Origin: a virus | Direction: 5' to 3' (one strand) | DNA: 38,724 nucleotides | IMG/VR virus record: IMGVR_UViG_3300050132_000108 | Coordinates: 1 to 38,724 of that record | Part shown: positions 7,644-35,172 of the stretch, piece after piece | Layout: each line of letters starts with the position of its first letter | Numbering within the stretch: the first letter of the stretch is position 1 | Program-made: the position numbers and the translations under genes | Notes under the pieces: model-generated | Seen by the model: the letters and a program-made list of their open reading frames with translations, nothing else | Database searches by the model: none | What the model was told of the DNA's origin: nothing

Positions 7644-7817
7644 ATGACACTACTTACTTTGCTCGTCGCGCTTATCATAATCGCTCTTGCCTACTGGGTC
7701 ATTACCACCCTTCCACACTGTAGTTCTTGTGGTATTCGTAGTCGTTTGGCTCCTAGGTCTCATCGCACCGGGCTCAGTAGGTTCATTCCCACTACGATAA
7801 TTTCGCAGCGAAAATGA
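7644..7817 (+). pseudogene. Two-TM membrane protein split by a frame change
   Basis: From ATG 7644 the first 24 codons give a clear TM helix (TLLTLLVALIIIALAYWVI). Frame 0 then turns into a Cys/Arg/Ser-rich tail ending at TGA 7815-7817, overlapping the groES ATG. In the +1 frame, from about 7712, a second TM helix appears (HTVVLVVFVVVWLLGLIAPG), ending at TAA 7798-7800. Joined, they form a normal small two-TM protein of the kind common in phages. Either a mutation or error broke the gene, or expression needs a +1 shift. Confidence 0.55.
7801..7813. repeat. 13-bp palindrome TTTCGCAGCGAAA
   Basis: A perfect copy that ends directly before the groES ATG. It is one of three perfect copies (others at 13437 and 24755). 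Confidence 0.7.
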
Positions 7818-8080
7818 AGAAACCAACAATCCAACCAGTGGGAGACATAATCCTCATGAAGATAGAACAAGCAAACCTCGGTGCGCTTGATACTTCCTCA
7901 ATGAAGACAGGCGTAGAGTGGGCAACCATCGTAGCTCTTGGCCCCGAAGTACAAGGAAGCTATAAGGTAGGCGATAAAATCTTTGTGAAAGCATGGGGAG
8001 TTGATTCAATCTTTTATGAGAACGAAGACTACCACTTCACCTCAGAAGCGCGTAAAGCTATTTGTGCAATCATTAAGTAA
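7814..8080 (+). CDS. groES: Phage-encoded GroES co-chaperonin
   Basis: An 88-aa protein with the GroES fold signature: IQPVGDIILMKIEQ at the N-terminus, ATIVALGPEV...YKVGDKIFVKAWGV in the middle and AICAIIK at the end. It caps the GroEL ring. The mobile loop (about residues 19-33, ANLGALDTSSMKTG) lacks the usual Ile-Val-Leu contact triplet and has LGAL instead, which suggests co-adaptation with the phage GroEL. The roof loop is short. The start is set by ATG 7814 beside the palindrome. Confidence 0.9.
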   Translation: MKKPTIQPVGDIILMKIEQANLGALDTSSMKTGVEWATIVALGPEVQGSYKVGDKIFVKAWGVDSIFYENEDYHFTSEARKAICAIIK

Positions 8081-8081
8081 C

Positions 8082-8309
8082 ATGTGTGATAACTTCGCTA
8101 GTTGTCATAACCCAACAGTCCTCAACGAGGATAACAATGCTATCTACGCATATTGCAAAGACTGCGGAGCACAAGAGAGAATAGGCAAAGATAAGAGCGG
8201 AGAACCAGAACACAGAGCTTACTCCGAATTCTTCAAGCGTGATGTACTACAACCACCAGCACCGTTGTATTATCGCTATGCAGGAGCTAAAGAAATGCGT
8301 ATAGTCTGA
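8082..8309 (+). CDS. Small zinc-ribbon-like protein
   Basis: A 75-aa protein (MCDNFASCHNPTVL...) with Cys at 2 and 8 and a CKDCGAQ knuckle that could bind zinc. The ATG at 8082 follows the groES stop by 1 nt; a longer frame from 8001 would lie inside groES. Function is unknown. It precedes the terminase genes by 4 nt. Confidence 0.6.
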   Translation: MCDNFASCHNPTVLNEDNNAIYAYCKDCGAQERIGKDKSGEPEHRAYSEFFKRDVLQPPAPLYYRYAGAKEMRIV

Positions 8310-8313
8310 ACAA

Positions 8314-8697
8314 ATGGCAACTACACGACAAAAGAAAGTAGCTAAGTTAGTGGTAGATAATCTAACGCTGGACAAACCTCTAACAGGTGGTCAAATACTG
8401 GAAAAGACTGGATACGCACCTGGAGTAGTAAAGAACCCTAGAGACATACTAGACTCACAAGGAGTAAAGGAAGAGTTAAAGAACTATGGTTTCGACCCAG
8501 AGAAAGCAAAAGAAGTAGTAGCAGAGATACTTATTGCAGGAGAAAACGACAGCGTAAAGCTCAAAGCAGCAGACATGATATTCAAAGTACACAGCACGTA
8601 TGCACCTGAGAAGAGTATCAACCTCAATGTAAATGTCGAACCAAGTGATAGAATAAGAGAACTAGCTAACAGGCTCAAACAGTTACCTCCTCTATGA
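8314..8697 (+). CDS. terS: Terminase small subunit
   Basis: A 127-aa DNA-recognition subunit of the packaging motor. The N-terminal KVAKLVVDN...[13 protein letters not shown] helix-turn-helix and the [10 protein letters not shown]...[19 protein letters not shown] segment match the TerS family found beside GpA-type TerL genes. Position before TerL supports it. Its stop overlaps the HNH start (ATGA). Confidence 0.8.
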
Positions 8698-9236
8698 AGA
8701 AACGTACAGCTTGGAATAAAGGATTGAAATCTTCGCCTGAGACGAGAGAAAAACTTCGTATAGCCCATCTCGGTATAAAACAGACAGAAGAGTCTAACCG
8801 CAAGCGAAGGGAGGCTATTTCTGGTAAGAAACATACATCACACGCCATTGAGAATATGAGAGTCGCACAGAGCAATAGAAGTGAGGAGTGGAGAACAAAT
8901 ATAGCCAAAGGCAAAGTAGGAGAAAAGAATCCATTTCATGGAAAGAGAGGAGCGGAAACACCCAACTGGAAAGGTGGCATAACACCAGTTAATAAAGCTA
9001 TACGCAACTCAAGAGAATACGCATTGTGGCGTACCGCAGTCTTTGAGAGAGATAACTATACGTGTGTGTGGGGAGGAAAGGAGCATGGAACTAAACTACA
9101 TGCTGACCACATAAAGCCTTTTGCGTTATACCCAGAATTACGTTTTGCAATAGATAATGGACGGACTTTATGTGTTCCGTGCCATAGAACAACTGAAACT
9201 TATGGAGGCAGAGTACACCGAACAAGAGATACTTGA
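8694..9236 (+). CDS. HNH homing endonuclease with NUMOD3 repeats
   Basis: A 180-aa free-standing endonuclease between the terminase subunits. Residues 5-65 hold NUMOD3-type DNA-binding helices ([32 protein letters not shown]). The HNH core is at about 120-165: [11 protein letters not shown] and the closing C..CH. The first zinc knuckle reads CVWG where CxxC is usual, so one metal ligand is lost and activity may be reduced. It spreads by cutting phages that lack it. Its 3' end overlaps TerL by 35 nt. Confidence 0.85.
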
Positions 9237-10758
9237 AGCAACTGAGCTTGTCCCAACACTATGGATATTGCAAAACAATATCTGTAATGAGAATGGCACC
9301 CCAATAGAGTTTCACAACCACAGATTCATGTGGGATGTATACAATGACTTGAGTCAGTTCCAGGTACTATTGAAACCTCCTCAGATAGGCGCGACAGTAA
9401 TGAATACTATCAAGTGTTTCTTCATAGCTAAGAAGCTGGGTAAGCAGATAATCTATACACTGCCCACGCAAGGAGATATACAGGCTATGGTAGGTGGTTC
9501 TATCAACCGTATTATCGCTCAAAACCCTATCCTTTCTGAATGGGTTAAAGAACATGACACCATCGAACAAAAGACGGTAGGTACTTCAATGATTTTCTAT
9601 AGAGGAACATTCACTGCCAAGCAGGCTATGATGATTCCAAGTAATTTAAACGTGCATGACGAGACAGACAGCTCTAACCAGTCAGTGATTGAGAACTACG
9701 AAACACGTCTCCAGGCAGACCCAGACGGTATGCGTTGGTATTTCAGCCACCCCAGTTTGCCAGATTACGGAGTAGACAAGTATTGGCAGATTTCAGACCA
9801 AAAGCATTGGTTCATTACCTGCCCTCATTGTGAAGTAGCACAGTATCTCTCATGGCCTGACTCCATAGACTCTGTGCGTAGGTGCTATCAGTGCAAAGAG
9901 TGCAAAGGAGAGCTATCAGACGATGACAGGCGCAACGGTCAATGGTACGCAAAGCAGAAAGACAAGCTATTCAGCGGATATTGGATAAGCCAGCTCATGT
10001 GCCCGTGGATAACCGCTGACAAGATACTCAACGATTTCGCAGAGAAAACACCAGAATACTTTTATAACTATGTCTTAGGACTCCCGTACGCAGGAGGAGA
10101 CGCAAAGCTCACCGAGAACCATCTATTCCAAAACTTAAGCCATGACCTGCAAGTAGCTGATACGAGCGAACGCATAGTAATCGGCATAGATACAGGCGCA
10201 AAGCTTGACTACGTGCTTGGTAATGAACGCCTAGGACTCTTCCACCATGGAGACAGCACAGACTATAAAGAACTCAACAACTTCATGACCCGCTGGCCGA
10301 ACGCTATAGCCATAATCGACGCAGGAGGAGACTTCATAGGTGCACAGAAGTTTGCAGAACAGTGGCAAGGGCGTGTATTTAAGGCATACGCAGGTGAGGA
10401 TAGGAAGAACAACCAGCTATTTAGGTGGGGAGAGCGTAATGACCAAGGTCAAGTAATATATGACCTCAATAGAACGTGGCAACTACTTGTGGACGAGTTT
10501 AGAGATAAGCGATTGCCACTCCAAGGTGAAGAGAATGACTGGTGGGAGTACTGGCTTGACTGGAAGAACATGTCTCGTATCAAGGTATACGACCCCATAA
10601 CTAACGCATTCAAAGGCATTAAATGGGTCAGGAATGGCAGGAACCACAGAGCAAGTGCAACACTCTTCTGGCGCATAGGCATGGATAGATTCAGTGGAGG
10701 CTCAGTATCGTTCGTTGGAGGAGATGATGATAAGCCCCGTACTGGCATAGATATGTAG
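9202..10758 (+). CDS. terL: Terminase large subunit, GpA-like
   Basis: The 518-aa motor that cuts and pumps DNA into the head. The ATPase has a deviant Walker A (K58-PPQIGATVM) in which the lysine is shifted to the front, as in lambda gpA, and a Walker B in NLNVHDETD (148-155, D152/E153). A zinc-binding insert (CPHC...CYQCKEC) typical of GpA terminases follows. The nuclease half has IGIDTGAK and IIDAGGDF acidic strands. The ATG at 9202 is preferred; one at 9157 would lie deeper in the HNH gene. The HNH insertion may have rebuilt this N-terminus. Confidence 0.9.
10035..10047. repeat. 13-bp motif copy TTTCGCAGAGAAA (in terL)
   Basis: One mismatch from the perfect palindrome. It lies in coding sequence (reads F-A-E-K), so it could be coincidence. 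Confidence 0.4.
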
Positions 10759-10804
10759 TTGCTACCACTGGCTAGCGTGTTGTGAATGAATAGACTGGGA
10801 ACAT

Positions 10805-11005
10805 ATGGCAAACAAAGCAATGTGGGATTTTATGGACAAGGCAGAAGGTCGTACAGACTCTTCATACTCTAATATGAAGCAAGAAAGGAAGCGTCAGGGT
10901 TACGATAAGTCTTCTTCTAAAAAGATGTCGATGGCAAAGAAGATGAGCACTAACGGCATGAAAGCCTCAACAGACGGCAAACCAAGTAAGGGAGTTAATA
11001 ACTAA
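10805..11005 (+). CDS. Small basic hypothetical protein
   Basis: A 66-aa Lys/Ser/Met-rich protein (MANKAMWDFMDKAEGRTDSS...), probably disordered, ending KPSKGVNN. It sits between TerL and the portal, where small head-completion or DNA-binding proteins often lie. No family is recognised. The start context is ACATATGGC with no Shine-Dalgarno. Confidence 0.6.
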   Translation: MANKAMWDFMDKAEGRTDSSYSNMKQERKRQGYDKSSSKKMSMAKKMSTNGMKASTDGKPSKGVNN

Positions 11006-11008
11006 CAT

Positions 11009-11176
11009 ATGGCATATAACAAACTAGATGGTGATAGTGACGCAGCTGAGGCTCATGCAAAGGCTCGCGGTAAGAAGAAAGACATTGCCAAGAAAATAAA
11101 GAGTAAGTGCGAAGTCTGTGGGAAAGGACATACAAATCACGCTTCTTACGTATATAAAACGGGGAGTCTGTCATAA
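11009..11176 (+). CDS. Small zinc-knuckle protein
   Basis: A 55-aa basic protein (MAYNKLDGDSDAAEAHAKAR...) whose second half holds CEVCGKGHTNH, a C-x2-C-x4-H-x3-H-like pattern suited to zinc. It starts 3 nt after the previous stop and ends 2 nt before the portal gene. The start context (ACATATGGC) is the same as the preceding gene. Function is unknown. Confidence 0.6.
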   Translation: MAYNKLDGDSDAAEAHAKARGKKKDIAKKIKSKCEVCGKGHTNHASYVYKTGSLS

Positions 11177-11178
11177 CC

Positions 11179-13062
11179 ATGGCTGAAGCCAGCGCATACA
11201 ATCAAGGTATATTCCAAGCCGTAAAAGGCGCAATGGGACTATTCAAAGACTACAATAAGATTGGAGATGTTGGCCCTGGTGGTCCTTCTAACGGCACACC
11301 AGGCGCAGAGGAGCCACGTAGTGAGTATCAGTCTAAGTTCACCAAGACCCAGGCAGAGAACTTCCGTAAGGAATGGAAGAATCGCTACTCTATCTATGCG
11401 TCAGAGCTAGAACCTTTACAGAAGATAGCTACAGACTATTGGCTTGGTAAGCAGAAGAAAGACCCGTTAGAGACTGTAGACGGCCATGACACTGTTGATA
11501 ACCTCATATTTGAGGCTGTTGAGACGTTCCTACCTATTGCTAACAAGGCTAATCCTGACCCTATTGCTACCGCAGGAGACTTGCCTGAAGGCGTTGCCCT
11601 CGCTAAGAACATAAAGAATGCACTCGTAGACTGGGCAGATACCCAGGACTTGCGTATGAAGCTCAAAGGCATGACTCGTAACTGGGTACTCAATCAGCTT
11701 GGTATCCTCAAGATGAGCTATAACGTCTTCAAAGATGAGATTGAGTGTGAAGTACGTCCCGTGAAGCAGATGAAGTTCGACCCAGACGGTCACTGGGATG
11801 AGTCAGGACTATTCACAGGAGATTGGATTGGCGACCCTAAGAAGATGAGTGCAGGAACTCTTATGGATATGTTCCCAGACCACAAGGACACCGTTCAGAA
11901 GCTCGCAAAGGGCAACATGAGCAAGAAGCTCACCATGGAAGAGTGGTGGTACAAAGGCACAGACATCTTTTATTACATTGAGGAGACATGCGTAGGAACC
12001 TTTAAGAACCCTAACTGGAACTATGACGGAGAGAACAAGGTACTAGACCCTGAAACACAGGAGGAGATTGTCGTGCCTATCATTGGCAAGAACCACCGAT
12101 TTGGCCGCAACGCACCCCAGTTCCCCTACATCGGACTCTCAGTGTTCTCAACAGGTGAGAAGCCCCATGATGACACCTCTCTTATCCTTCAGAATATTCC
12201 ACTCCAAGACCTCCACAACAAGCGTCTACGTCAGATTGATAAGAACGCAGACTCACAGAACAGTGGAGCACTAGCCTCGGGCACAAGCTTTACCAAGGAA
12301 CAGGCCGCAGAAGCAGCTACCTACCTTCGTAAGGGCAAGGTTGTATGGGTGCCTAATGGGGACGTGAACACTGCATGGAAGCGCGATGCAGCACCTGCTC
12401 TCCCAGGAGACATCTTCCAGCAACAGCAACAGAGCGAGACACGTCTACAGAACATCTTTGGCACCGCAGGCAGTAGCGCACAGGGCATACAGCAAGAAGA
12501 TTCAGTACGAGGCAAGATTATGGTGCAACAGTCAGATAGCTCACGTATTGGCGGAGGTGTAACAGAATACATCGAAAAACGTGCAGATACGGTCTACAAC
12601 TTCGTGGTGCAGTTCATGTATGTCTACTACGACGACCCCCACATGGTGTCAGCTATGGGTGAGAATGGTGCCGCTGAGGTTATTGCTATACGTAACAGCG
12701 ACTTTACACAGCCTATAAAGGTAACAGTGAAGGACGGTTCACTTATACCTAAAGACCCCCTTACTGAGCGTAATGAGGCTATGGACTTGTGGCAGGCTAA
12801 CGCTATCGGTCTTCCCGAGCTTTACATACGCCTAGACTTCCCAGACCCAATGGCTTCTGCAAAGCAGACACTCCTATGGCAGCAGGTAGCACAAGGACTT
12901 CTTCCACCACAGCTCTTGTTCCCAGACTTCCCGTCTCCTCAAGTACAGGCTCCTATCGGAGTAGGTGGACCGCCTGTAAGCGAGAACATGAATGCTGAAC
13001 CACCAGTAGACCCCGCAGCAATGCAGGGACAAGACTTATTAAAATCAGTACCAATTGGATAA
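11179..13062 (+). CDS. Portal protein
   Basis: A 627-aa protein forming the ring at the head vertex through which DNA passes. Evidence is its position after TerL, its size, and portal-like features: a helical N-terminal wing (EYQSKFTKTQAENFRKEWKN), a long crown/stem region with IPLQDLHNKRLRQIDKNAD, and a Gln-rich helix (IFQQQQQSETRLQNIFG). The C-terminal 50 residues are Pro-rich and probably flexible. Its length fits podovirus-type portals. Confidence 0.8.
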   Translation: MAEASAYNQGIFQAVKGAMGLFKDYNKIGDVGPGGPSNGTPGAEEPRSEYQSKFTKTQAENFRKEWKNRYSIYASELEPLQKIATDYWLGKQKKDPLETVDGHDTVDNLIFEAVETFLPIANKANPDPIATAGDLPEGVALAKNIKNALVDWADTQDLRMKLKGMTRNWVLNQLGILKMSYNVFKDEIECEVRPVKQMKFDPDGHWDESGLFTGDWIGDPKKMSAGTLMDMFPDHKDTVQKLAKGNMSKKLTMEEWWYKGTDIFYYIEETCVGTFKNPNWNYDGENKVLDPETQEEIVVPIIGKNHRFGRNAPQFPYIGLSVFSTGEKPHDDTSLILQNIPLQDLHNKRLRQIDKNADSQNSGALASGTSFTKEQAAEAATYLRKGKVVWVPNGDVNTAWKRDAAPALPGDIFQQQQQSETRLQNIFGTAGSSAQGIQQEDSVRGKIMVQQSDSSRIGGGVTEYIEKRADTVYNFVVQFMYVYYDDPHMVSAMGENGAAEVIAIRNSDFTQPIKVTVKDGSLIPKDPLTERNEAMDLWQANAIGLPELYIRLDFPDPMASAKQTLLWQQVAQGLLPPQLLFPDFPSPQVQAPIGVGGPPVSENMNAEPPVDPAAMQGQDLLKSVPIG

Positions 13063-13064
13063 AT

Positions 13065-13358
13065 ATGGACGCTCACGACAAGAAGATAGACCTAGCAAAG
13101 CATATGAAGATGAGTAACCAGAGTACTCATTTGAGTAATAAACTACACGCGTTGTCTAATAGCGACGCAGGAAAACTGGGTGGTGCTTCTGACAGGTTGC
13201 GTGGGACAGAGCATTTCAAGAAATTGAAGCACGAGACACACGCCGCTTTCCAGGCCGAACGTAAATACAATCAAAGCGCAGAGGCAAAAGAACACCAGAA
13301 ACATTTGAAGACCCTAAGTTATAAAGAACGGCAAGAACTACGCAGAAAGCATAGATAG
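13065..13358 (+). CDS. Basic helical hypothetical protein
   Basis: A 97-aa, very basic His/Lys/Ala-rich helical protein (MDAHDKKIDLAKHMKMSNQS..., ERQELRRKHR) starting 2 nt after the portal stop. It could bind DNA or be a minor head protein. No family is recognised. Confidence 0.6.
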   Translation: MDAHDKKIDLAKHMKMSNQSTHLSNKLHALSNSDAGKLGGASDRLRGTEHFKKLKHETHAAFQAERKYNQSAEAKEHQKHLKTLSYKERQELRRKHR

Positions 13359-13401
13359 TCCTACCACTACGAGAAGTTCATTAAACATTTAGGATACGGT
13401 T

Positions 13402-13602
13402 ATGGCATCTCCCGCACTTGTTTCAAAGATTAAGAGTTTCGCAGCGAAAATTGGTGGCTCTACCAGCTACGACATGACCAAAGACCCTACCAGTGCTGTA
13501 AGCATGATGCAGCGCAAACAGAAGAGTACCCCAGTACCTACTTCACAGAACGCACGTATGGGCAGCAAGCAACAGACGTTCGGTGTTCCAGGAGCTAAGT
13601 AG
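13402..13602 (+). CDS. Small basic hypothetical protein
   Basis: A 66-aa protein (MASPALVSKIKSFAAKIGGS...) with a short amphipathic N-terminus and a Gln/Ser-rich tail. A possible -10 (TAGGAT, 13390-13395) lies 6 nt before the ATG, matching other leaderless starts here. It contains a perfect copy of the 13-bp palindrome. The 97 bp after it (13603-13699) hold no gene I can see. Confidence 0.5.
   Translation: MASPALVSKIKSFAAKIGGSTSYDMTKDPTSAVSMMQRKQKSTPVPTSQNARMGSKQQTFGVPGAK
13437..13449. repeat. 13-bp palindrome TTTCGCAGCGAAA
   Basis: A perfect copy within the 66-aa gene, reading F-A-A-K. Confidence 0.6.
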
Positions 13603-14494: not shown

Positions 14495-14504
14495 TTATCA
14501 TTAG

Positions 14505-16603: not shown

Positions 16604-17317
16604 ATGTCTACTCTTCGCTCAGACCTTCTCATCAACCCACAGGAGTTGTTTGACCTTACCATCAGTACAAAGGGTACTGACCTCGGGGCACTCGCTACTA
16701 CAGGTGATGGGCGTTACTTCCGCTATGCTCAGGCAGGCGCAGTAGCACTTGTTCCAGGTACTCTCCAGCAAGCTGTTGTTGAAGTCACTGGTAACGAAAA
16801 CCTCACGGCAGTCGCTGCCGCTGTAGGTGCAACACAGCTCGTATCGACTTCAACTGTCACGGTTACTGCAAACCAGTACCAGGGTGGTTGGGCAATGATT
16901 ACGGTTACTCCTGGTCAGGGATACCAGTATCAGATTGGCAGCCATGCAGCATTCACAAGTGCCGCACCGACATTCACTCTTACTGACCCTATCCAGGTTG
17001 CGCTTACGACAGGTTCACGTATCGACCTCGTATCGAATCCTTATGCAGGTGCAATTATCAACCCTTCAACTGCGACTAGCTTGCCATCAGGCGTTGCTAT
17101 TGCAGCTACCCCAATCAGCTACTACGGCTGGTTGCAGGTTCGTGGGGTTGCCAATGTGCTTGCAGATGGTACGGTTGTAGTAGGTACGTCAGTCTGTGCT
17201 TCTAACGGTACCGCAGGTGCTGTAGAAGCTACCGCAGGTGTTCAGGCACTTGTCGGTACAGCGGTTACAGGTATTGCTACCACCGAGTACGGTGCTATCA
17301 ACCTCACAATCGGTTAG
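16604..17317 (+). CDS. Structural (decoration-like) protein
   Basis: A 237-aa beta-rich protein (MSTLRSDLLINPQELFDLTI...). Residues 30-140 carry long Thr/Ala/Val strands (VTVTANQYQGGWAMITVTPG, YQYQIGSHAAFTSAAPTFTL) and a C-terminal 70-residue domain resembling a capsid decoration or spike module (GVQALVGTAVTGIATTEYGAI). Similar proteins often follow coat genes in phages. The exact role is not determined. Confidence 0.6.
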   Translation: MSTLRSDLLINPQELFDLTISTKGTDLGALATTGDGRYFRYAQAGAVALVPGTLQQAVVEVTGNENLTAVAAAVGATQLVSTSTVTVTANQYQGGWAMITVTPGQGYQYQIGSHAAFTSAAPTFTLTDPIQVALTTGSRIDLVSNPYAGAIINPSTATSLPSGVAIAATPISYYGWLQVRGVANVLADGTVVVGTSVCASNGTAGAVEATAGVQALVGTAVTGIATTEYGAINLTIG

Positions 17318-17328
17318 TTTCTTCTCCC

Positions 17329-17341
17329 TTTCTCTGCGAAA
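17329..17341. repeat. 13-bp motif copy TTTCTCTGCGAAA (reverse orientation)
   Basis: The reverse complement of TTTCGCAGAGAAA, in the gap between the decoration-like gene and the HNH pseudogene. Confidence 0.55.
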
Positions 17342-17374
17342 GCAGGGATGGGATAGAGGAAATTAGTCCTCATA

Positions 17375-17383
17375 TGGTATAAT
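17375..17383 (+). promoter_or_regulatory. Extended -10 promoter of HNH pseudogene
   Basis: TGG-TATAAT, a consensus -10 with the extended TGn, ends 6 nt before a GTG start at 17390. It suggests the homing gene arrived with its own leaderless promoter. Confidence 0.6.
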
Positions 17384-17389
17384 TGACAT

Positions 17390-17977
17390 GTGAATAATTG
17401 GAGAATTAAAGATTTAACAGGTCAGAAATTCAATCGGTGGACAGTGTTGTCTACTGATTATGTTAAGAACAACTTTGGGTATATTTTGTGGAACTGTGTA
17501 TGCGAGTGTGGAACTCTACACACTGTATCTACATAAAATCTCCGTAGTGGCAGTTCTATGAGCTGTGGTTGCCAACGTGTAGATACTGCTAAATTAGGGT
17601 TATCAAGACTTGGAAAGAAAGGACAGAAAATGAGTCCTGAAACTGTTGAGAAGATGCGAACGCGTCTATTGAAACAATGGGAACAAAAGAGAATAGAAAC
17701 AGGTATTGATTTCTCATATGAGAGGAATAGTTATAAAAATAGGTCATGGGCTAAGGCGGTCAAGAACAGAGATGATTGGAAGTGTAAAATAGCCAATGAT
17801 AACTGTTCTGGGACGCTTGAGGCGCACCACATTCTAGGTTGGAAAGACTACCCAGAATTGCGTTATAAACTAAATAATGGCATTTCGCTTTGCGCATTTC
17901 ATCACCCCAATAAAAGAGATGATGAGGTACGTTTGTCGCCCTACTTTCAGTCTCTGATAGTTGACAAAGCACAATAA
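17390..17977 (+). pseudogene. HNH endonuclease interrupted by a stop codon
   Basis: From GTG 17390 the frame encodes a zinc-ribbon N-terminal domain (DLTGQKFNRWTVLS... CVCECGT ...SMSCGC) found in homing endonucleases. TAA at 17534-17536 replaces a residue between TVST and NLRSG, where a Lys or Asn is usual. The same frame then continues to 17977 with linker helices and an HNH core (EAHHILGWKDYPEL, NNGISLC, FHHPNK). One base change (AAA to TAA would do it) has killed the gene or split it. Restart at ATG 17558 would give only the C-terminal 139 residues. Confidence 0.8.
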
Positions 17978-18522: not shown

Positions 18523-19254
18523 ATGAAACTTCTCTCCCCGCAAGAAACCCGAACGAAGAGAGAAACCTTCAACACTACGCTTTCCTCACGTAGTGCAGAC
18601 TTGGACGAGGCAATAGTAGCCAAAAGAAAAGAACTGCTCACGCTTGATGAGCAGTTCTTGCGTGCCATTGAAGACAATCGACTCATACGACTCAAGGAGG
18701 ACGCAGAATGGGAACAACGTAATCACACCCTTCGTTCAGAGACTGAGGAGCTTGAGAACAGGAAGAGACTTGCGTTGCTACCACTGGAAGAACGAGAGCA
18801 AAAGATACAGGATGATGAGGAAGCTCTTTTACAGCGTGAGAAGAAAGTAACGAAACAGGAGAAAGAAGTCGTTGACACCCAGGAACTCTTGGAAATGAGA
18901 CTCGACACAGCCTCAGAACACATGGATTCGGCCTCTAAATGGCACCAGGAGCTTACTAAACGGCAGGAAGGTATAAAGAGGCAGGAAGCAGTTACAAAGA
19001 CCCGTACAGACGAGTTTAATGCTGTCCTTACGAAGACTCTTTTGGACTTCGAGAAGCAACGGAATGAACTTGCTGCAAAGAAGCTAGAGAACGAAGGTAA
19101 AGACATCGTTTTCGCAGAGAAAGAAGCTCGAATCCTGGCTAAAGAGAAAGACCTTGTTTCCCGTGAAACCCTGCTTAAAGACCGTTACGAAACACTTGCT
19201 CGCGCTATAGAAGAACACAAACGCAAAAACAACATCCCCAAAACCTACAAATAA
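18523..19254 (+). CDS. Long coiled-coil protein
   Basis: A 243-aa, almost wholly helical, charged protein (MKLLSPQETRTKRETF..., EREQKIQDDEEALLQREKKVTKQ split by breaks) with heptad-like Leu spacing at about residues 20-230. It shares build with the coiled-coil protein at 19587, with a 109-aa beta protein between them. A tape-like, scaffold or fibre-shaft role is possible, but none is shown. Confidence 0.65.
   Translation: MKLLSPQETRTKRETFNTTLSSRSADLDEAIVAKRKELLTLDEQFLRAIEDNRLIRLKEDAEWEQRNHTLRSETEELENRKRLALLPLEEREQKIQDDEEALLQREKKVTKQEKEVVDTQELLEMRLDTASEHMDSASKWHQELTKRQEGIKRQEAVTKTRTDEFNAVLTKTLLDFEKQRNELAAKKLENEGKDIVFAEKEARILAKEKDLVSRETLLKDRYETLARAIEEHKRKNNIPKTYK
19110..19122. repeat. 13-bp motif copy TTTCGCAGAGAAA (in coiled-coil gene)
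   Basis: Identical to the copies at 10035 and 27830. It is coding here (F-A-E-K). Confidence 0.4.
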
Positions 19255-24726: not shown

Positions 24727-24888
24727 ATGGAACTCAATCTTAAAAAGCCTACGCTTTCGCTGCGAAAACCAACGCTCAATCTAACTAAGGCTCCTGCGGT
24801 AAGCCCCTTTAAAATAGAAAATGGTCAGGAGGTTCGTAAGAATCTTGCCACTAGCAAGAAGCAAGCCCTAGCAAGTAAGATGGTGTAA
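24727..24888 (+). CDS. Small basic hypothetical protein
   Basis: A 53-aa basic protein with an internal repeat, KKPTLSLRKPTLNLTKAP. It is unrecognised. Its stop shares one base with the next ATG (TAATG), a sign of a real coupled gene. It contains a perfect 13-bp palindrome. Confidence 0.5.
   Translation: MELNLKKPTLSLRKPTLNLTKAPAVSPFKIENGQEVRKNLATSKKQALASKMV
24755..24767. repeat. 13-bp palindrome TTTCGCTGCGAAA
   Basis: A perfect copy with central T, the same site read from the other strand. Confidence 0.6.
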
Positions 24889-27815: not shown

Positions 27816-27829
27816 CTACCACTACCGAA

Positions 27830-27842
27830 TTTCGCAGAGAAA
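27830..27842. repeat. 13-bp motif copy TTTCGCAGAGAAA (intergenic)
   Basis: Intergenic, 15 bp before the adaptor ATG. It is followed by ATCTAA, as is the copy at 34688. Confidence 0.55.
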
Positions 27843-27857
27843 TCTAAGATATACGCA

Positions 27858-28754
27858 ATGCGCACCACGACGAGCTATACATCAGATTTCACGAACTTGT
27901 CAAACAATACAAGTACGGATAACTCCACGCTTGGTCTTAAACTCGTAAATGATGCTATACGTTACCTCGTAGGAGTGTTCTTCTTCAACGAACGCACCTA
28001 CACTGACGTAACGGTAGCAGGGCAGCAGGGCTACACCCTCCCGTACAATATCAAGCAGATGATTAACGTAACCGTACAAATCGGTGGTGTACTCTATCAG
28101 CCTCGTGAAGTAGCTACCCGCCAGCAGTTTGACGCACTGAATGTCATTGCTTTCTCAAACGACTACCCGCAGTACTACTACATCTACAACAACCAACTTC
28201 TCCTCTGGCCGACTCCTGCAAGCTCTGCCAACACAATCACGGAACACTTCAAGATTCGTCTCCGTGACCTTTCAGCAGCAGACGTAACAACAGGTACAGT
28301 ATCTGTAACAACCAACACCCCTACCATGACAGGCTCTGGTACTTCGTGGACTACCAACATGGCTGATAGGTGGATACAGATACCACTCACAACTTCCAAT
28401 ACGACCTCAGGAGACGACCAATGGTATCAGATACTTTCTGTACAAAGCGCAACATATCTCACCCTTAAGAATAGCTACCAGGGCGGTACGGTAACAGGAG
28501 GTACTTACACCATCGGTGAGAGCCCTATTCTTCCCGAGGACTACCAAGACCTACCACTCTACCGCGCACTCTATGTCTATTACACTGCAATCAACCCAAG
28601 CGCAGAACGAGCTAAGTACTTCAAAGCTCTCTACGACGAAGGATACCTACGACTTGAAGCAGAGTTCGGTTCAAAGACTTCTGGTGTGGGACTTCTTACT
28701 GAGGAACTACCAGTGTGGAATCCAAACTTGTTCCAGAACAACGTCGGAATGTAA
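27858..28754 (+). CDS. Head-tail adaptor (gp11-like)
   Basis: A 298-aa protein. It opens with a helix (LGLKLVNDAIRYLVGVF), then YTLPYNIKQMINVTVQIGG, PQYYYIYNNQLLLWPTP and PILPEDYQDLPLYRALYVYY, a pattern shared by podovirus adaptor/tubular A proteins that seat on the portal. Its distance from the portal gene is unusual. A weak -10 (TAAGAT, 27845-27850) lies 7 nt before the ATG. Confidence 0.7.
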   Translation: MRTTTSYTSDFTNLSNNTSTDNSTLGLKLVNDAIRYLVGVFFFNERTYTDVTVAGQQGYTLPYNIKQMINVTVQIGGVLYQPREVATRQQFDALNVIAFSNDYPQYYYIYNNQLLLWPTPASSANTITEHFKIRLRDLSAADVTTGTVSVTTNTPTMTGSGTSWTTNMADRWIQIPLTTSNTTSGDDQWYQILSVQSATYLTLKNSYQGGTVTGGTYTIGESPILPEDYQDLPLYRALYVYYTAINPSAERAKYFKALYDEGYLRLEAEFGSKTSGVGLLTEELPVWNPNLFQNNVGM

Positions 28755-28755
28755 A

Positions 28756-29247
28756 CTACTTATGAACTCTATTCTTCTTACGAAATGCAACATAATGTTT
28801 CTGACACATGCCCCGACTGACGGCTCTTGCACCACATATGCAAGAAAGATATATAGTCTGATGGTGTTTAGAATGCTCACTTTGGCTAAGAACTTCCAAG
28901 TTTTCTGGTCTGTTATCCAACTTGTCCTCGTTGATATGATGGGCTATTTCTACACCTCTTCCCATTTTCAATGGACGACCAATCTTCTCCATGAGAACTT
29001 TACGATGCTCAGCAACATAACCGTTCTTGTTCGCAAGTGGATGGCTTGGCTCAAGAATATATCGGTATCCATTCCTATAAAATTCGCCACCCTTCCAATG
29101 CTTACTGGCATTACCGGAAACAAACTGTTTTTGCCATTCTCGACGACACTCTATAGAACAAGTCTTTCCTCTTCCTTGATTAAGTTTCCAAGTCATTACT
29201 TCAAAAGAAGTATCACAAACCTTACAAATTACTTTGGAGTATCTCAT
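28756..29247 (-). CDS. HNH homing endonuclease, antisense
   Basis: A 163-aa protein on the opposite strand to its neighbours. Residues 8-36 form a zinc ribbon (CKVCDTSF...CSIEC), 50-70 hold the WKGGEFYRNGYRYIL motif, 78-130 the HNH core (YVAEHRKVLMEKIGRPL, EIAHHINEDKLDNRPENLEV). A further CxC/CxxxH cluster ends it (CICGARAVSRGMCQKH). It has its own strong promoter, so it is an autonomous insert between the adaptor and internal-protein genes. Confidence 0.9.
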   Translation of the reverse strand: MRYSKVICKVCDTSFEVMTWKLNQGRGKTCSIECRREWQKQFVSGNASKHWKGGEFYRNGYRYILEPSHPLANKNGYVAEHRKVLMEKIGRPLKMGRGVEIAHHINEDKLDNRPENLEVLSQSEHSKHHQTIYLSCICGARAVSRGMCQKHYVAFRKKNRVHK

Positions 29248-29255
29248 ATCCCAAT

Positions 29256-29284
29256 ATTGTACTCGGGTATATATACTTTTGCAA
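29256..29284 (-). promoter_or_regulatory. Promoter of antisense HNH gene
   Basis: Minus strand: -35 TTGCAA (29284-29279), 17-bp spacer, -10 TACAAT (29261-29256), then 8 nt to the ATG at 29247. The mRNA would have a leader of 0-2 nt. Confidence 0.7.
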
Positions 29285-29296
29285 TAACAAGCTAAT

Positions 29297-30883
29297 ATGG
29301 CGAATCCCTACAGCACACTCGGTACTAATCCTTATAACTCGCTTCCTGCGAGTCCGTATAACGCTACACAGACCTCTACGCCCCCTGTACCAGCCTCTAT
29401 GGGCACTAGAGCTGTATCGCCCACTACAACCGTTACAAAGCCTCCTACGACCCTTCCAAAGGCTCAGGCGGTCACTCCACCAGCAAGTGCGGGGACATAC
29501 AAAGGTGTGAATATAACTCATGGCTCAGATGCAGATGTTGCTGCTCAAATCGCTAAGATAAATGCTAATCAGCCAGATCAGGCTCCTGCACAGACACCCT
29601 CATACCCAGGACTTATTGGTGCTCAAATACAAGCTAAAGACCAAGCTGCGGCTCCCGCAGCTCCGCCAGCACCTCCTACCTATTCAGGTCTTATCGGAAG
29701 TGCCGCAGGACAAGCAGGGAACGTACAGACCCAGGCAGGGAACGTAAACAACACCGCTACTCAAATCGGAGCTAATGGTCAAATGTCTCCTCAGGAACTT
29801 GCTAAGATTCAGCTTCTTGGAGGTCTCACAGAATCCCAGGCACAGGACAGCGCAAACATTGAAACTCACCCAGGTGTAGGAGGTTTTGCTATGGGTAGGG
29901 ATGCTATCAACCTTGCCAACCATGAGGCTATTCGCTCTTCTCTTGGTCAGCAGATTCAAGGCTATGCTGCTTCACGCACAGCTAATGCTAATGCTCTCAA
30001 TCAACAGGCTACGCAGCAAAATAATGCAGGTACTCTCATGGGCAATGCAGGTAATCTCTATCAGAATGCTGCTACGTCTGCGGCTCCTAGTACTGCGACA
30101 CCAGGCCAGGCAGTCTTTAATCCTCTTACAGGCACTTATTCGAGTGCTTCTTCGGGTGGTGGAACCCCTACTACAGCTCCTTCAGGTATCGACCAGAACT
30201 CATGGAATCAGTACATACAGGCATATGCAAGTGGAAATATCGCTTCCATTCCAAGTGCAATAACAGGCAACGCAAATCTCGCTGGACAACTCCAGGCAGC
30301 TGTTCAAGCCCAGAATCCTAATTACGACTATGCTACTGCTACAGGAGCAGCGGGGGCACGTAACTCTAATGCTGGTCTAGCGGGGACAACCTCACCAGAG
30401 GCATACAAAGCTATCTACACAAAAGCTCTTTCTGATTACGCTGATTTGCAACAGAGTATTCAAAATGTGGATGGTTTTGGTACATTGCTCACAAGCAACA
30501 TGTCAGCTGGTGGTATCAATCCTACCGATGTTAAGTATGCTAACCAGACACTCGCACAGATTCGTGGGCAACTTTCTAGTTCAGCTCAGGGTCAATACGA
30601 TAGTACACTGGCTGCTCTACGTTCAAAGATTTCAGGAATGCTCGCAGTGGGAGGAAGCGAGACACCAACAGCAATAACCGCAGATGCACAAAAGATTCTT
30701 GATGGTTCGCTGCCGCTTAGTTCATTGAATGCTGTACTTAGTCGTATCCAGACGGAAGGAAACACATTACTTACGAATCAAGGAACCAAAGTAAACGCTG
30801 CAAAGACAGGCACTCTTGGCGGTAACGGAGGTGGAGGCGGCTCAACAGCACCGATAACATGGAACAGTATAATCAGCCACTAA
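29297..30883 (+). CDS. Internal virion / ejection protein candidate
   Basis: A 528-aa Ala/Gln/Pro/Gly-rich protein. It has a disordered N-terminus (residues 1-150, many P and T), then helical segments (QAQDSANIETHPG, HEAIRSSLGQQIQGYAASR) and a Gly-rich end. Such composition and its position before the 661-aa ejection protein fit podovirus internal proteins. No enzyme motif is seen. Confidence 0.5.
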   Translation: MANPYSTLGTNPYNSLPASPYNATQTSTPPVPASMGTRAVSPTTTVTKPPTTLPKAQAVTPPASAGTYKGVNITHGSDADVAAQIAKINANQPDQAPAQTPSYPGLIGAQIQAKDQAAAPAAPPAPPTYSGLIGSAAGQAGNVQTQAGNVNNTATQIGANGQMSPQELAKIQLLGGLTESQAQDSANIETHPGVGGFAMGRDAINLANHEAIRSSLGQQIQGYAASRTANANALNQQATQQNNAGTLMGNAGNLYQNAATSAAPSTATPGQAVFNPLTGTYSSASSGGGTPTTAPSGIDQNSWNQYIQAYASGNIASIPSAITGNANLAGQLQAAVQAQNPNYDYATATGAAGARNSNAGLAGTTSPEAYKAIYTKALSDYADLQQSIQNVDGFGTLLTSNMSAGGINPTDVKYANQTLAQIRGQLSSSAQGQYDSTLAALRSKISGMLAVGGSETPTAITADAQKILDGSLPLSSLNAVLSRIQTEGNTLLTNQGTKVNAAKTGTLGGNGGGGGSTAPITWNSIISH

Positions 30884-30884
30884 T

Positions 30885-32870
30885 ATGGCAGCACTAACGC
30901 TTTCAAATGGAACGCAGGTAGACCCCGCAACTCTAGATAATACTCCACCTGACGCAGGAGTATTCAAGGTAATGCAGACAATTAAGAAGCTTGAAGGAGG
31001 AGATTATAATAATCGGTCTGGTGACTCCGGTTCTTCAGCGGGAGCTTTTCAGTGGAATAATGACAATAAACCTCTAAAGCCAGGTGAGCTTCCTAGCCAC
31101 TGGAAGAATGCGGCAGCCCAGTACCTGAAAGACCCGAATGCTCCTATGACTCCTGAGAATCAGAACTTCGTAGCTTACCAACAGATGAAAGCCTACAAAG
31201 ACCAAGGCAAGAGTCCTGAGGAAATAGACGCATTATGGAACGGAGCCAGTAAAGACGCTTCTGGTAAATACGTACATAACTCTGCTGAACGGGCTCAAAA
31301 GTTCCGTGATGCAATCATGGGAGGCCAATCAGACCCACAAAGCAATCAAAGCGGATATGTAGACCCAACCAAACCACAACAGCCAGATACTAATACAGGC
31401 TATGGATACGTTACTCCGCCGCCTACACCACCACCTGCTGCACCCGCAGATATAGCACAACCAGAACCTGATAGGGGCATACTTGGTAATCTCGCGCATG
31501 GTGTGAGTAGTGGCCTTTCAACTCTTGAGAAGCCATTTCTTGGTATTGCTGCGCTTCCTCTACAAGCTGGAGTGGCAGGATACAACGCCCTCACAGGTAG
31601 TCATGTAGCCGACCCATTTGCTAATGGAGTTCCTGCCGGACTACCAGGAGCACCCACAAACACAGATGTGACTCCTCTTTCTCTAGAGAAAAAAGCTGGA
31701 GATATTGCACAAGTAGGTAGTTATATGGTTCCAGGTGCAGAAGGTCTAGGAGCTGTCGCTGGTGGTGTTGGCACAGGCATTTTACAAGGAGCAGGTTCTG
31801 CCATGTCTGAAGGCAAAGGACTTGCTGATGTCGGTGCACAAGCAGGGCTTGGTGCGCTCACAGGTGGTGCTCTTGTTGGAGGTTCTAAACTTCTTGGTGC
31901 AGGACTCCGTGGTGCTGGTGACGCACTATCGGGAGCAGGTATGAGCAAAGCCGTACAAGGCATAAAAGACGCATATACCTCAGCTCTCAATCTTACCGCA
32001 GCAGAACGTGGATTTGAGAATCGTAGTGGCAAAGATATAGCTCAAGTCCTTATGGATAATAAGGTGTCTCTTTCTCGCAACAGCGACGGCACATTAAATA
32101 CAACTGAGGCGATACCTAAACTACGTGCGGTACTAGACCCTCTCAATCAAGAGGCTGACCAGCTATTGAATCACCCACAGGGTATCGTAGGGAATGTCTC
32201 GCTCAATGACGTAGCTAAGAATGTCTTTTCAAAGATAGATGGTATGTCTATTCCTGAAGCTGACAAAGCTGGTGCAAAGAAACTGGCAATGTCATACATC
32301 AAAGCAGAAGCTAAGAATGGAACAGAACTCACTCCAGCACAGGCAGATAAGATTAAACAGAACTTCTGGGGAGCCACGTTCGATAGGAACCGCACGTCAC
32401 TTCAAAACGACATACCTTATCTTATTGGTAAGGAGATGCAATCTCAGACTGAGAAAGCTGTAGCTGGTACTGATACTGAAACAAGTCTTCACGAACTCAA
32501 CGCAAAACGAGGCGGCCTTATAGACGCTATTAAGCGACTAGGAAAACTAGACGGGGTACGAAAAGTAAAAGGAGGAACTATGGGAAAGCTTACAGGAGGT
32601 CTTGTAGGTTCTGTTGCAGGAGCTGCTTCTGGTATGGGTACACTAGGTGCGCTAGCAGGAGACTACTTCGGTGGCAAAGCTGCTGATTTCTTGAACAACC
32701 CTGCTACTAAGATAGGGACTGCTCAGGCTAAGGCCAAAGTAATGGGGACTCTACCAAAACTCGCCGGAGGAGCGGGACGGCAAGTCGGCAAAGGGGTCAG
32801 TGCTGTCGGGCGCGGAGTAAGTAAGGGAGCGAGGGCGGTAGGGCTTGCTGGGAACGTCGCCTCCCAGTGA
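30885..32870 (+). CDS. Ejection protein with lysozyme-like N-terminus
   Basis: A 661-aa protein. Residues 25-140 look like a lytic transglycosylase/lysozyme domain (IKKLEGGDYNNRSGDSGSSA with likely catalytic E37, GAFQWNN). A Pro-rich linker (about 175-200) follows, then long Gly/Ala hydrophobic stretches at 280-350 and 560-600 (GALTGGALVGGSKLLGAGL; GGLVGSVAGAASGMGTLGAL) that could span a membrane. It would open the cell wall and form a DNA channel on infection. Confidence 0.65.
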   Translation: MAALTLSNGTQVDPATLDNTPPDAGVFKVMQTIKKLEGGDYNNRSGDSGSSAGAFQWNNDNKPLKPGELPSHWKNAAAQYLKDPNAPMTPENQNFVAYQQMKAYKDQGKSPEEIDALWNGASKDASGKYVHNSAERAQKFRDAIMGGQSDPQSNQSGYVDPTKPQQPDTNTGYGYVTPPPTPPPAAPADIAQPEPDRGILGNLAHGVSSGLSTLEKPFLGIAALPLQAGVAGYNALTGSHVADPFANGVPAGLPGAPTNTDVTPLSLEKKAGDIAQVGSYMVPGAEGLGAVAGGVGTGILQGAGSAMSEGKGLADVGAQAGLGALTGGALVGGSKLLGAGLRGAGDALSGAGMSKAVQGIKDAYTSALNLTAAERGFENRSGKDIAQVLMDNKVSLSRNSDGTLNTTEAIPKLRAVLDPLNQEADQLLNHPQGIVGNVSLNDVAKNVFSKIDGMSIPEADKAGAKKLAMSYIKAEAKNGTELTPAQADKIKQNFWGATFDRNRTSLQNDIPYLIGKEMQSQTEKAVAGTDTETSLHELNAKRGGLIDAIKRLGKLDGVRKVKGGTMGKLTGGLVGSVAGAASGMGTLGALAGDYFGGKAADFLNNPATKIGTAQAKAKVMGTLPKLAGGAGRQVGKGVSAVGRGVSKGARAVGLAGNVASQ

Positions 32871-32930
32871 TTTAAGCCACGCAAAGAAATAGATAAGTCC
32901 TATAAGGGGAATAAGTCCGAGTAGTATCAT
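32751..32930 (-). CDS. Possible antisense membrane peptide
   Basis: ATG at 32930 opens 59 codons on the minus strand: a TM helix (MILLGLIPLIGLIYFFAWLK) then a basic/Ser-rich soluble tail. The TM part lies in an otherwise empty gap, but the last 120 bp run antisense to the ejection protein gene, where the tail may be a shadow. An AGGG lies 8 nt before the ATG. No clear promoter is seen. Confidence 0.4.
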   Translation of the reverse strand: MILLGLIPLIGLIYFFAWLKSLGGDVPSKPYRPRSLTYSAPDSTDPFADLPSRSSGEFW

Positions 32931-32957
32931 ACCGGCACCCTATCACAATCCCCAGTG

Positions 32958-33011
32958 TTGACAACACGTTATCCCCTGTTTTATGAAGATTTGACAAGGT
33001 GCTACTATACG
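32958..33011 (+). promoter_or_regulatory. Promoter region of HTH/lysis unit
   Basis: TTGACA (32958-32963) with an 18-bp spacer to TATGAA (32982-32987) gives one promoter with a leader of about 20 nt. A second candidate -10, TATACG (33006-33011), ends 5 nt before the ATG at 33017 and has TTATCCCCT (32969-32977), a DnaA-box variant, 28 bp upstream. The choice between them is open. Confidence 0.45.
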
Positions 33012-33016
33012 TGTTG

Positions 33017-33349
33017 ATGGCTACGTTTATATACCATTTTAGGACTGACCTCTCTAAACTGTATGAAATGCTTGCACTCCGTGAAATGGGTTGGTCGTAC
33101 ACTGCCCTCGCAGAACGCTACAACTGCCCCAAACTCACCATACGCTACCTTTCTAGGAAGTATGGCCTTGGTCACGAGATAGTAACTGTAACGGTTGACC
33201 GACAACGATACCTTCGTGCCACCACCCAGCCTTCCCCAGACGTTACAATAGGGCAGACAGAAGAGAAGATTTGTGAGGGTAAAACCTACGCACAATATCT
33301 CAAAGAAGAGGCAGAACGGAAGTATCGAAGATTAAACCCAAACCTATGA
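33017..33349 (+). CDS. Helix-turn-helix protein, possible regulator
   Basis: A 110-aa protein. Residues 10-50 read LSKLYEMLALREMGWSYTAL, AERYNCPKLTIRYLSRKYGL, a classic HTH of the sigma/resolvase type. The C-terminal tail (KTYAQYLKEEAERKYRRLN) is charged. It could be the late-gene or operator regulator of this phage. A longer frame from 32999 would begin upstream of the -10. It overlaps the lysis peptidase start by 4 nt. Confidence 0.6.
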   Translation: MATFIYHFRTDLSKLYEMLALREMGWSYTALAERYNCPKLTIRYLSRKYGLGHEIVTVTVDRQRYLRATTQPSPDVTIGQTEEKICEGKTYAQYLKEEAERKYRRLNPNL

Positions 33350-34398
33350 ATAACAACGACCCGATTTCAATTCTCGGAATCCACCCATCGGGGGCAATTC
33401 CAAATACTCCTGACTCTCGTGACTATCCCGCTGTCTCACCAGAGATAGGCATGGCTCCTGTTCCTTTTGACTGGAATGTAGGCTATGAAGTTGAAAAAGA
33501 TACGGGTATCCGTGTAACCCGCAAAGACCAAGCACAGAGTGGTTCGTGTGGAGGACAAAGTATCTCAGAAGCAGCGCAGTCTCTCAGTGTTAAGTTTCTC
33601 GGCGAAAATAGCGAGAAGAGTGCAAAGGCTTACTACTCCCAGGTATACATCCCAGGTGGTGGTTCAAGCTCCCGTGCTCTAGCTGAAATCCTCATTAAGC
33701 AAGGCTTCTTCAAAGAAGAGTTGGTGCGTAGTTACCCCCAGGACGGTAGCGGCACAACAGAAGCCTTCATGGAGAGGCCCCAGGACATCACACAAGGCGC
33801 TAGGAGCGATGCAGCACCCTCTGCTGGTCTCTTTGCCTATGTGTACCCACAAGTGACCATAGACGCCATTGGACAGGCTGTACGCGACCACCAAGGAGTG
33901 TTCATCGGGATACATGGCTACAACAACGGCACCTGGCTTTCAAGTAATCCTAGTACCAAGGAAGTAGGTAGCCCCTGGGCACACTTCATGGTGGTTATCG
34001 GGGCAAAGCTAATTAACGGCAAAAAGAACCTCATTTGCCTGCAAAGCTGGGGACCAGACGCACCAGACGCTACACAAATTCAGTACATTAGCGAAGACCA
34101 CTTCACCGCAGGGCATATCTGGGACGCTATCGCCTTTGTGTATGCTCCTATGCCGCCACACCCAAAGCATGTGTTCAATGTAACCATGGTGTATGGGCAG
34201 ACAAGTGATGAGGTACGCGCTATGCAGGCCTTGTTTGCCAATGACGGGGTGTTCAACCTAAATCCAACGGGATTCTATGGCCCTGCAACGGCTCTAGCTG
34301 TCCTCAAGTTCCGCACAAAGCATGGGATAGACAGTTCCACTGACAAATACGGACACTCAGTAGGGCCGTCCACACGTAAGGTTATGAACACCTTGTGA
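33346..34398 (+). CDS. Papain-like peptidase fused to peptidoglycan-binding domain (candidate endolysin)
   Basis: A 350-aa protein. Residues 55-270 are a C1A-type cysteine peptidase: Q62 and C68 in DQAQSGSCGGQS (the oxyanion Gln six before Cys, as in papain), H213 in WAHFMVVIGA, and QSWGPD at 233-238 where papains have NSWG. Residues 282-350 are a PG_binding_1 domain (SDEVRAMQALFANDGVF, GFYGPATALAVLKFR). It lies directly before a holin-like gene. It would cut peptide links of the wall or surface proteins. No signal peptide is seen, so release would need the holin. Confidence 0.75.
   Translation: MNNNDPISILGIHPSGAIPNTPDSRDYPAVSPEIGMAPVPFDWNVGYEVEKDTGIRVTRKDQAQSGSCGGQSISEAAQSLSVKFLGENSEKSAKAYYSQVYIPGGGSSSRALAEILIKQGFFKEELVRSYPQDGSGTTEAFMERPQDITQGARSDAAPSAGLFAYVYPQVTIDAIGQAVRDHQGVFIGIHGYNNGTWLSSNPSTKEVGSPWAHFMVVIGAKLINGKKNLICLQSWGPDAPDATQIQYISEDHFTAGHIWDAIAFVYAPMPPHPKHVFNVTMVYGQTSDEVRAMQALFANDGVFNLNPTGFYGPATALAVLKFRTKHGIDSSTDKYGHSVGPSTRKVMNTL
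33595..33607. repeat. Diverged 13-bp motif TTTCTCGGCGAAA
   Basis: Two mismatches from the palindrome, in coding sequence. A weak member. Confidence 0.25.
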
Positions 34399-34413
34399 TT
34401 AATCGTTAATAGT

Positions 34414-34419
34414 TATACT
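34414..34419 (+). promoter_or_regulatory. -10 of holin-like gene, leaderless
   Basis: TATACT ends 6 nt before the ATG at 34426. A TTGTGA at 34393 is only 15 bp upstream, so the -35 is uncertain. Confidence 0.5.
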
Positions 34420-34425
34420 TAACTC

Positions 34426-34611
34426 ATGAAATCTATATTTCAATCAAAGACAGTTTGGCTCGCAATTGGACAGTTCGTTGTTGGCTTCCTCGCACTCTTT
34501 ACCGCGTCGTTTGGTGCATACATCCCTGCATCAGCACTCGGTTTGATTGTGATGGTTAAGTCAGTTATCGACATCTATATGCGCTCTATTACTACCCAAC
34601 CAGTCGGGTAG
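34426..34611 (+). CDS. Holin-like membrane protein
   Basis: A 61-aa protein with a basic N-terminus (MKSIFQSKTVW) and two hydrophobic helices (LAIGQFVVGFLALFTASFGA; PASALGLIVMVKSVIDIYM), the size and shape of small phage holins. Its position between peptidase and lysozyme supports that it opens the membrane at lysis. Confidence 0.65.
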   Translation: MKSIFQSKTVWLAIGQFVVGFLALFTASFGAYIPASALGLIVMVKSVIDIYMRSITTQPVG

Positions 34612-34686
34612 TACTTACTGAAACGGCATACCAAGTACACGTAGTGTCGCTACGCTGGAAAGGTTGAGAACTCGGTACGACGTGCG

Positions 34687-35172
34687 ATTTCGCAGATAAA
34701 ATCTAAAACACTTTCAGCAGTTGTAATACTAGGACTTATCTTTTATTGGCTGATGCCGCTAATGGCAAACGCTATGACGATAGATAGTCAGAAGATATAC
34801 ACAACTTCTCCCGTAGAAAGTGTTGCACTCGTACCTACTAACGCTATAGTTAGCGTGTCAGAGCCAGCGAAAGCCCGTTCTGATGTTATAACGGCCGTAG
34901 GGATAGCCACTTCTAGCGAGGTGGCTTCTCTGATTTTAGAGACCTTTCCAGAAGCCCCCAGAATGCTCCAGGTGGCCATTGCAGAGTCAGACTTAGTAAC
35001 TACCGCAAAGAACCCCAAAAGCTCTGCCACGGGTATTTTTCAGGTTTTAAACGGTACACGAGACGCGTATCACTGTGGCGACCAAACGATAGCTGAAGAA
35101 AGTATCAAATGTGCTCGTAAAATATATGACGCCGAAGGCTATAAGCCATGGCGAAGTTCAGGTAATTGGTAG
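34687..35172 (+). CDS. Lysozyme-like (SLT-type) lysis enzyme with signal anchor
   Basis: The C-terminal 70 residues hold a lysozyme/transglycosylase core: QVAIAESDLVTTAKNPKSS with likely catalytic Glu in AESD, ATGIFQVLNGT, and CARKIYDAEGYKPW. The first ATG in frame is 34753, but the frame upstream encodes a perfect signal segment (KSKTLSAVVILGLIFYWL then MPLMANA). No ATG, GTG or TTG exists there; the best head is ATT at 34687 (161 aa). Either a rare start is used or the anchor is lost (139 aa from 34753). The enzyme would cut wall glycan after export. Confidence 0.65.
   Translation: MSQIKSKTLSAVVILGLIFYWLMPLMANAMTIDSQKIYTTSPVESVALVPTNAIVSVSEPAKARSDVITAVGIATSSEVASLILETFPEAPRMLQVAIAESDLVTTAKNPKSSATGIFQVLNGTRDAYHCGDQTIAEESIKCARKIYDAEGYKPWRSSGNW
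34688..34700. repeat. Diverged 13-bp motif TTTCGCAGATAAA
   Basis: Two mismatches from the palindrome, at the head of the lysozyme frame. It is followed by ATCTAAA like the 27830 copy. Confidence 0.4.

Follow-up and report, generated by a model that had tools for sequence, protein, structure and literature searches.

A 13-bp palindrome, best written TTTCKCNGMGAAA, is dispersed through the plus-strand late region of a 38,724-nt virus sequence, the whole of IMG/VR virus record IMGVR_UViG_3300050132_000108 (the window), and one of its copies lies between the -35-like box and the -10 hexamer of a predicted promoter. From its sequence, symmetry and placement we conclude, with a probability of roughly 0.55, that the word is an operator in this phage lineage, recognised by a regulator that is specific for the sequence and probably a dimer, with both promoter and non-promoter sites.

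A symmetric 13-bp word recurs through the late region

Re-checking the nine coordinates and mismatch counts of a preliminary description of this DNA showed all of them to be exact and all nine copies to lie in the plus-strand late region: three are perfect (7801, 13437, 24755), four carry one mismatch (10035, 17329, 19110, 27830) and two carry two (33595, 34688). Perfect copies are expected ~0.001 times per window under Markov orders 0-4, which agrees with the earlier estimate of near 0.001. The claim of repetition beyond chance is borne out by this estimate and by a scan, made without prior choice of motif, of every palindrome with 6-bp arms (gaps of 0-10, up to one mismatch) against 300 dinucleotide shuffles, in which the TTTCGC family scores 8, the best shuffle 6 and 299 of the 300 shuffles 5 or less. 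When up to three mismatches are allowed, the count is weakly above expectation (13 versus 8.5 by chance), so the signal resides in the near-perfect copies.

One and the same symmetric substitution recurs in all six imperfect copies, as C9>A or as its mirror G5>T. This makes the word TTTCKCNGMGAAA, in which one perfect half-site, TTTCGC, stands opposite a second TTTCGC or the variant TTTCTC. Copies 10035, 19110, 27830 and 34688 have the variant as their right half, 17329 and 33595 as their left half. Written in this way, the word is found 8 times in the window versus 3 times in 402 kb of related phages, with 0.013 expected. Five copies are inside ORFs (10035, 13437, 19110, 24755, 33595), while the four assigned earlier to gaps or gene starts were found in gaps (7801, 17329, 27830, 34688; Table 1). 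Five of the nine lie at most 450 bp downstream of a promoter of the box-A class described below, compared with 0.9 at random (P 0.001), a post hoc test in which the 450-bp length was chosen after the data were seen and the promoter list takes in weak ones.

A hairpin follows gene 16604-17317 in the window (17317-17400) and in every inspected relative, its position conserved and its sequence entirely different, so copy 17329 may be a hairpin look-alike unrelated to the palindrome family. In several of these phages, among them the window (TATGGTATAATTG), the hairpin is closely followed by a promoter-like -10.

Table 1. Palindrome copies, promoter parts and a regulator-like gene in the window
Feature	Positions	Strand	Context
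Perfect copy TTTCGCAGCGAAA	7801..7813	+	abuts groES-like ATG (7814)
Copy TTTCGCAGAGAAA	10035..10047	+	inside terminase large subunit, reads D-F-A-E-K
Second promoter box A TACCACTGGC	10763..10772	+	-10 TAGACT at 10791; ATG 10805; spacer without palindrome
Third promoter box A TACCACTACG	13362..13371	+	-10 TAGGAT at 13390; ATG 13402; spacer without palindrome
Perfect copy	13437..13449	+	inside ORF 13402-13602, reads S-F-A-A-K; 75 bp downstream of box A 13362
Copy TTTCTCTGCGAAA	17329..17341	+	part of terminator-like hairpin TCTCTGC-GAAA-GCAGGGA after gene 16604-17317
Copy TTTCGCAGAGAAA	19110..19122	+	inside ORF 18523-19254, reads V-F-A-E-K
Perfect copy, central T	24755..24767	+	inside 53-aa ORF 24727-24888 (reality uncertain), reads L-S-L-R-K
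Box A (-35-like) TACCACTACC	27817..27826	+	immediately past upstream stop codon
Proposed operator TTTCGCAGAGAAA	27830..27842	+	promoter spacer of tail-region gene 27858-28754
-10 hexamer TAAGAT	27845..27850	+	+28 from box; ATG at 27858
116-aa helix-turn-helix protein	32999..33349	+	matches phrog_3910 (transcriptional regulator, E 9e-4); modelled helices at 34-41 and 45-54
Copy TTTCTCGGCGAAA	33595..33607	+	inside ORF 33346-34398
Two-mismatch copy	34688..34700	+	weak box TACGACG at 34676, palindrome +12, TAAAAC +28; a weak, post hoc match to the layout at 27830

Box A stands at a fixed distance from a -10 hexamer

For comparison, about twenty related contigs were fetched, of which 402 kb were searched for TTTCKCNGMGAAA. 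The relatives compared do not exceed about 80% identity to the window, and a search for the nearest phage records by DNA found none. The gaps of close relatives conserve a box, TRCCACTA[CG]C (box A), which often begins at or just past the upstream stop codon, and the full arrangement reads TRCCACTA[CG]C, N18, TAnnnT and an ATG ~7 nt later. Among 18 sites chosen by the box and its distance to the start codon, and not by the -10, TAnnnT is found at exactly +28 from the box in 15 and at +29 in two more, with a maximum of 5 in shuffles. The contigs include near-duplicates (G003/G004, G001/G007 and G005/G008), so that the raw counts slightly exceed the tally of independent promoters; G003, G007 and G008 were excluded from the 18-site test. 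Half of the box-to-ORF-start pairs in the related-phage set (19 of 38, range 20-74 nt) fall at 40-43 nt, and twelve control words gave 0-2 pairs at 38-46 nt from an ORF start.

At two sites the ATG has moved, to 55 nt from the box (G001 4754) and to 54 nt (G006 10673), and TAnnnT is still at +28. The constraint therefore runs from box to hexamer, as in a promoter, and we rejected box A as a translation signal on the same two sites. Judged by this geometry, box A is a real promoter element, a phage-specific -35 in front of a -10. The -10 hexamer stands at a fixed distance from an upstream element, as in sigma-70-type promoters, and that element is TRCCACTA[CG]C instead of a TTGACA-like -35. The ATG ~7 nt after the -10 predicts leaderless mRNAs; on inspection, the window genes are without Shine-Dalgarno sequences.

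Clear promoters of the window begin at 10763, 13362 and 27817, and the box at 27817 is kept at the equivalent gap in G002, G004 and G020. Further sites (oriented coordinates) are present at G002 21737 and 30868, G004 4315, 6659 and 15713, G001 4754 and 6898, and G020 20624 and 35110. One box-A promoter of G002 is located on the opposite strand, 42 nt ahead of an ORF on that strand. In the distant relatives MG269973 (a TM7 phage) and MW202566, inspection found TRCCACT words without such a promoter pattern, and TTTCGC was not found. A box-A look-alike is also seen in the coiled-coil gene 18523-19254 (window 18779; oriented G002 26585, G004 11248, G020 26993). The window look-alike and the box that follows the terminase at 10763 share one 13-mer, TTGCTACCACTGG; the look-alike may be plain coding sequence (L-V-P-L-E-E) and is not relied on here. 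The repeated palindromes CTAGTGSCACTAG of G002 and GTAGTACCACTAC of G004 were considered as those phages' own versions of the motif and rejected. They represent the -35 box, often plus a TAG stop, and are therefore not homologous to TTTCGC.

One palindrome copy occupies a promoter spacer

The sequence at 27817-27858 consists of TACCACTACC, gaa, TTTCGCAGAGAAA, tc, TAAGAT and ATG in this order. The palindrome spans +13..+25 from the -35 box and ends 2 nt ahead of the -10, and no other window promoter has a good palindrome in its spacer. A related 10.9-kb fragment (G001) contains equivalent palindromes, TTCGCGGCGAA and TTCGCACGCGAA, at +13/+14 in both promoters that the contig shows; these promoters read TACCACTACCG-TAC-TTTCGCGGCGAAT and TACCACTACCG-TAT-TCGCACGCGAAT, the palindromes again ending just ahead of the -10. 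Searching 2.9 million viral contigs for the composite of box and palindrome returned family matches only in G001 and G007, plus three unrelated contigs that are chance matches. A scan of viral contigs for CTAGTACCACTACC gave mostly chance matches. Upstream of copy 7801, a box-A-like TCCCACTAC at 7787 is followed by GATAA and then TTTCGCAGCGAAA, without a clear -10.

A symmetric site at a fixed position in a promoter spacer is operator-like, since a protein bound there would compete with RNA polymerase. Of the three functions proposed in the preliminary description, a late-gene protein site is thus the one that fares best, given the 27830 copy in a promoter spacer and the arrangement that G001 repeats twice; that a protein binds and regulates there is what we infer. 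Points against an operator are the five copies in genes, of which three share the FA(A/E)K reading frame, the missing -10 at 7801 and the weak box at 34688. The three occurrences of TTTCKCNGMGAAA in 402 kb indicate that the motif is not family-wide, and it is absent from most relatives having the same promoters.

Alternative explanations

The copies could be a codon coincidence, in which helical FA(A/E)K peptides happen to be written in preferred codons and the copies in gaps match by chance, without relation to them. Copies 10035, 13437 and 19110 do encode FA(A/E)K in a common frame, and the predicted proteins contain three FA[AE]K tetrapeptides, each of them written with the palindrome codons. 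A synonymous-codon null, in which codons were redrawn and intergenic copies held fixed, nevertheless predicts 0.013 perfect and 0.22 near-perfect (at most one mismatch) coding copies, compared with 2 and 4 observed, and the similarity among 7801, 27830 and 34688, all in gaps, extends beyond the palindrome into the flanks. In relatives, the terminase site is written TTT GCT GAA AAG or TTC GCG GAG AAA, or reads FKEK, FMEK or FVEK. This variation in codons and residues argues that the coding copies are not inherited protein motifs, and we consider coincidence unlikely. The preliminary description had also asked whether relatives keep just the copies that encode FA(E/A)K in conserved proteins; they do not, as their terminase FAEK is in other codons and the G001 palindromes are in promoters. 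An RNA hairpin in the mRNA leader, acting as a translation or RNA-stability element, is improbable. The palindromes could fold, and both the G001 6911 and 17329 hairpins are foldable, but the stem has 5 bp with a 3-nt loop (about -1.5 kcal/mol for 7801), the common C9>A form breaks it, and promoter geometry places the 27830 copy upstream of the predicted transcription start. The 7801 fold also lacks the marks of an intrinsic terminator, a stable stem rich in G+C with a T run behind it, and no palindrome copy was found among terminator-like sites.

A site for a host protein (a nucleoid or segregation protein, or a stress regulator), carried or exploited by the phage, would fit the fairly even spacing of the copies (CV 0.51, P 0.03) and the failure to find a phage repressor. 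Restriction of the word to the late region, its fixed position within a phage-specific promoter and its absence from relatives presumed to have similar hosts make this rather doubtful. The two remaining proposals of the preliminary description, a recombination linker between modules and a packaging signal, we hold to be very improbable. Four copies do lie in gaps, but most (five) are within genes, and the gene order flanking the 27830 gap is conserved in G002, G004 and G020. A packaging signal is at odds with copies spread over 27 kb and with the absence of the word from relatives at 57-75% portal identity that have the same packaging genes.

Virus and host

The window encodes a terminase, a P22-like portal, a major capsid protein, GroEL- and GroES-like chaperonins and an HNH endonuclease. 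The only matches of the major capsid protein that bear a name include TM7 phage DolZOral124_53_65 (29% identity), where a chaperonin gene is found too. Because of this capsid match and the chaperonin gene common to both, a Saccharibacteria/CPR-type host, an ultra-small bacterium, is likely, as judged from these genes; searching 84,980 genomes with the terminase and major capsid protein gave no host link. The GroEL and GroES homologues (6117-8080) are divergent, and the annotation of TM7 phage MG269973 likewise lists a chaperonin Cpn60. Between groEL and groES, at 7638-7800, two halves of a small two-helix membrane protein are found in different frames (TLLVALIIIALAYWVITTLP and FHTVVLVVFVVVWLLGLIAPGSVGSFPLR), which suggests a frameshift or sequencing error. 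In the relative G020 (L048; 40,370 bp), a sequence close to one end recurs close to the other (oriented 74 and 40321); the contig, although classed linear, is for this reason probably a complete genome.

Proposed function and comparison with known systems

If the palindrome is an operator, binding of its protein at 27830, within the spacer, would keep RNA polymerase off the promoter or gate it. The in-gene copies would be secondary downstream sites acting by roadblock or looping, and those downstream of promoters might halt elongation or slow it down, the role that stoperators have in cluster A mycobacteriophages. The window yielded no HTH_3 repressor, and neither it nor seven relatives (8 records, possibly incomplete) yielded an integrase, so nothing points to a repressor of lysogeny; a regulator that times lytic growth, or a host protein, is equally likely. 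Within the window, the helix-turn-helix protein at 32999-33349 is the one candidate recognised as a DNA-binding regulator, and a weak candidate for the trans-acting factor. Homologues are present in G002, G004 and G020, phages without TTTCGC, and the protein therefore fits box A better than the palindrome.

Gene control in Patescibacteria/CPR phages is almost undescribed, and a literature search for promoters in these phages returned nothing on point. A promoter with a box, exact spacing and a predicted leaderless start, together with a proposed lineage-specific operator inside it, provides concrete bait sequences for the regulator. More tentatively, these CPR-type phages may possess their own leaderless late promoter class, to which some lineages, this one among them, could have added a spacer operator and in-gene copies, giving a network that resembles stoperators and acts on initiation as well as on elongation.

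In T4 middle promoters, a MotA box replaces the -35 element ahead of a normal -10. Box A, and not the palindrome, is comparable to this, being phage-specific and in the -35 place; it differs from the MotA box in sequence and position, and its activator is putative. Lambda-type operators are symmetric sites between -35 and -10 with one consensus and one variant half-site. The 27830 copy shares this symmetry, the spacer location and the pairing of consensus with variant half-site, whereas no CI/Cro-like protein was found in the window and most copies are outside promoters.

Cluster K mycobacteriophages contain start-associated sequences, 13-bp non-palindromic repeats 3-7 bp before start codons, some with nearby inverted repeats, for which a translational role was proposed (PMC3203893). 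In the window, by contrast, genes are without Shine-Dalgarno sequences, the element fits promoter geometry and only copy 7801 abuts a start codon, the others being inside genes or at least 15 nt from one. The stoperators and operators of cluster A mycobacteriophages (L5, Bxb1) are dispersed 13-bp sites, few of them in promoters and most not; they are asymmetric and their sequence differs between related phages (PMC6550527). Unlike these asymmetric, single-orientation sites, the window site is palindromic with the variant half on either side. It has about 8 copies, partly within genes, in a phage in which neither an immunity repressor nor an integrase was recognised. Like stoperators, it is a dispersed, phage-specific 13-bp site far above chance whose sequence differs among related phages, and a few copies, by their sequence position, would fall within promoters (27830 and the two G001 promoters), most others lying elsewhere. 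Should the in-gene copies bind as well, they would represent a second, independently arisen case of dispersed elongation-blocking sites, outside the actinobacteriophages.
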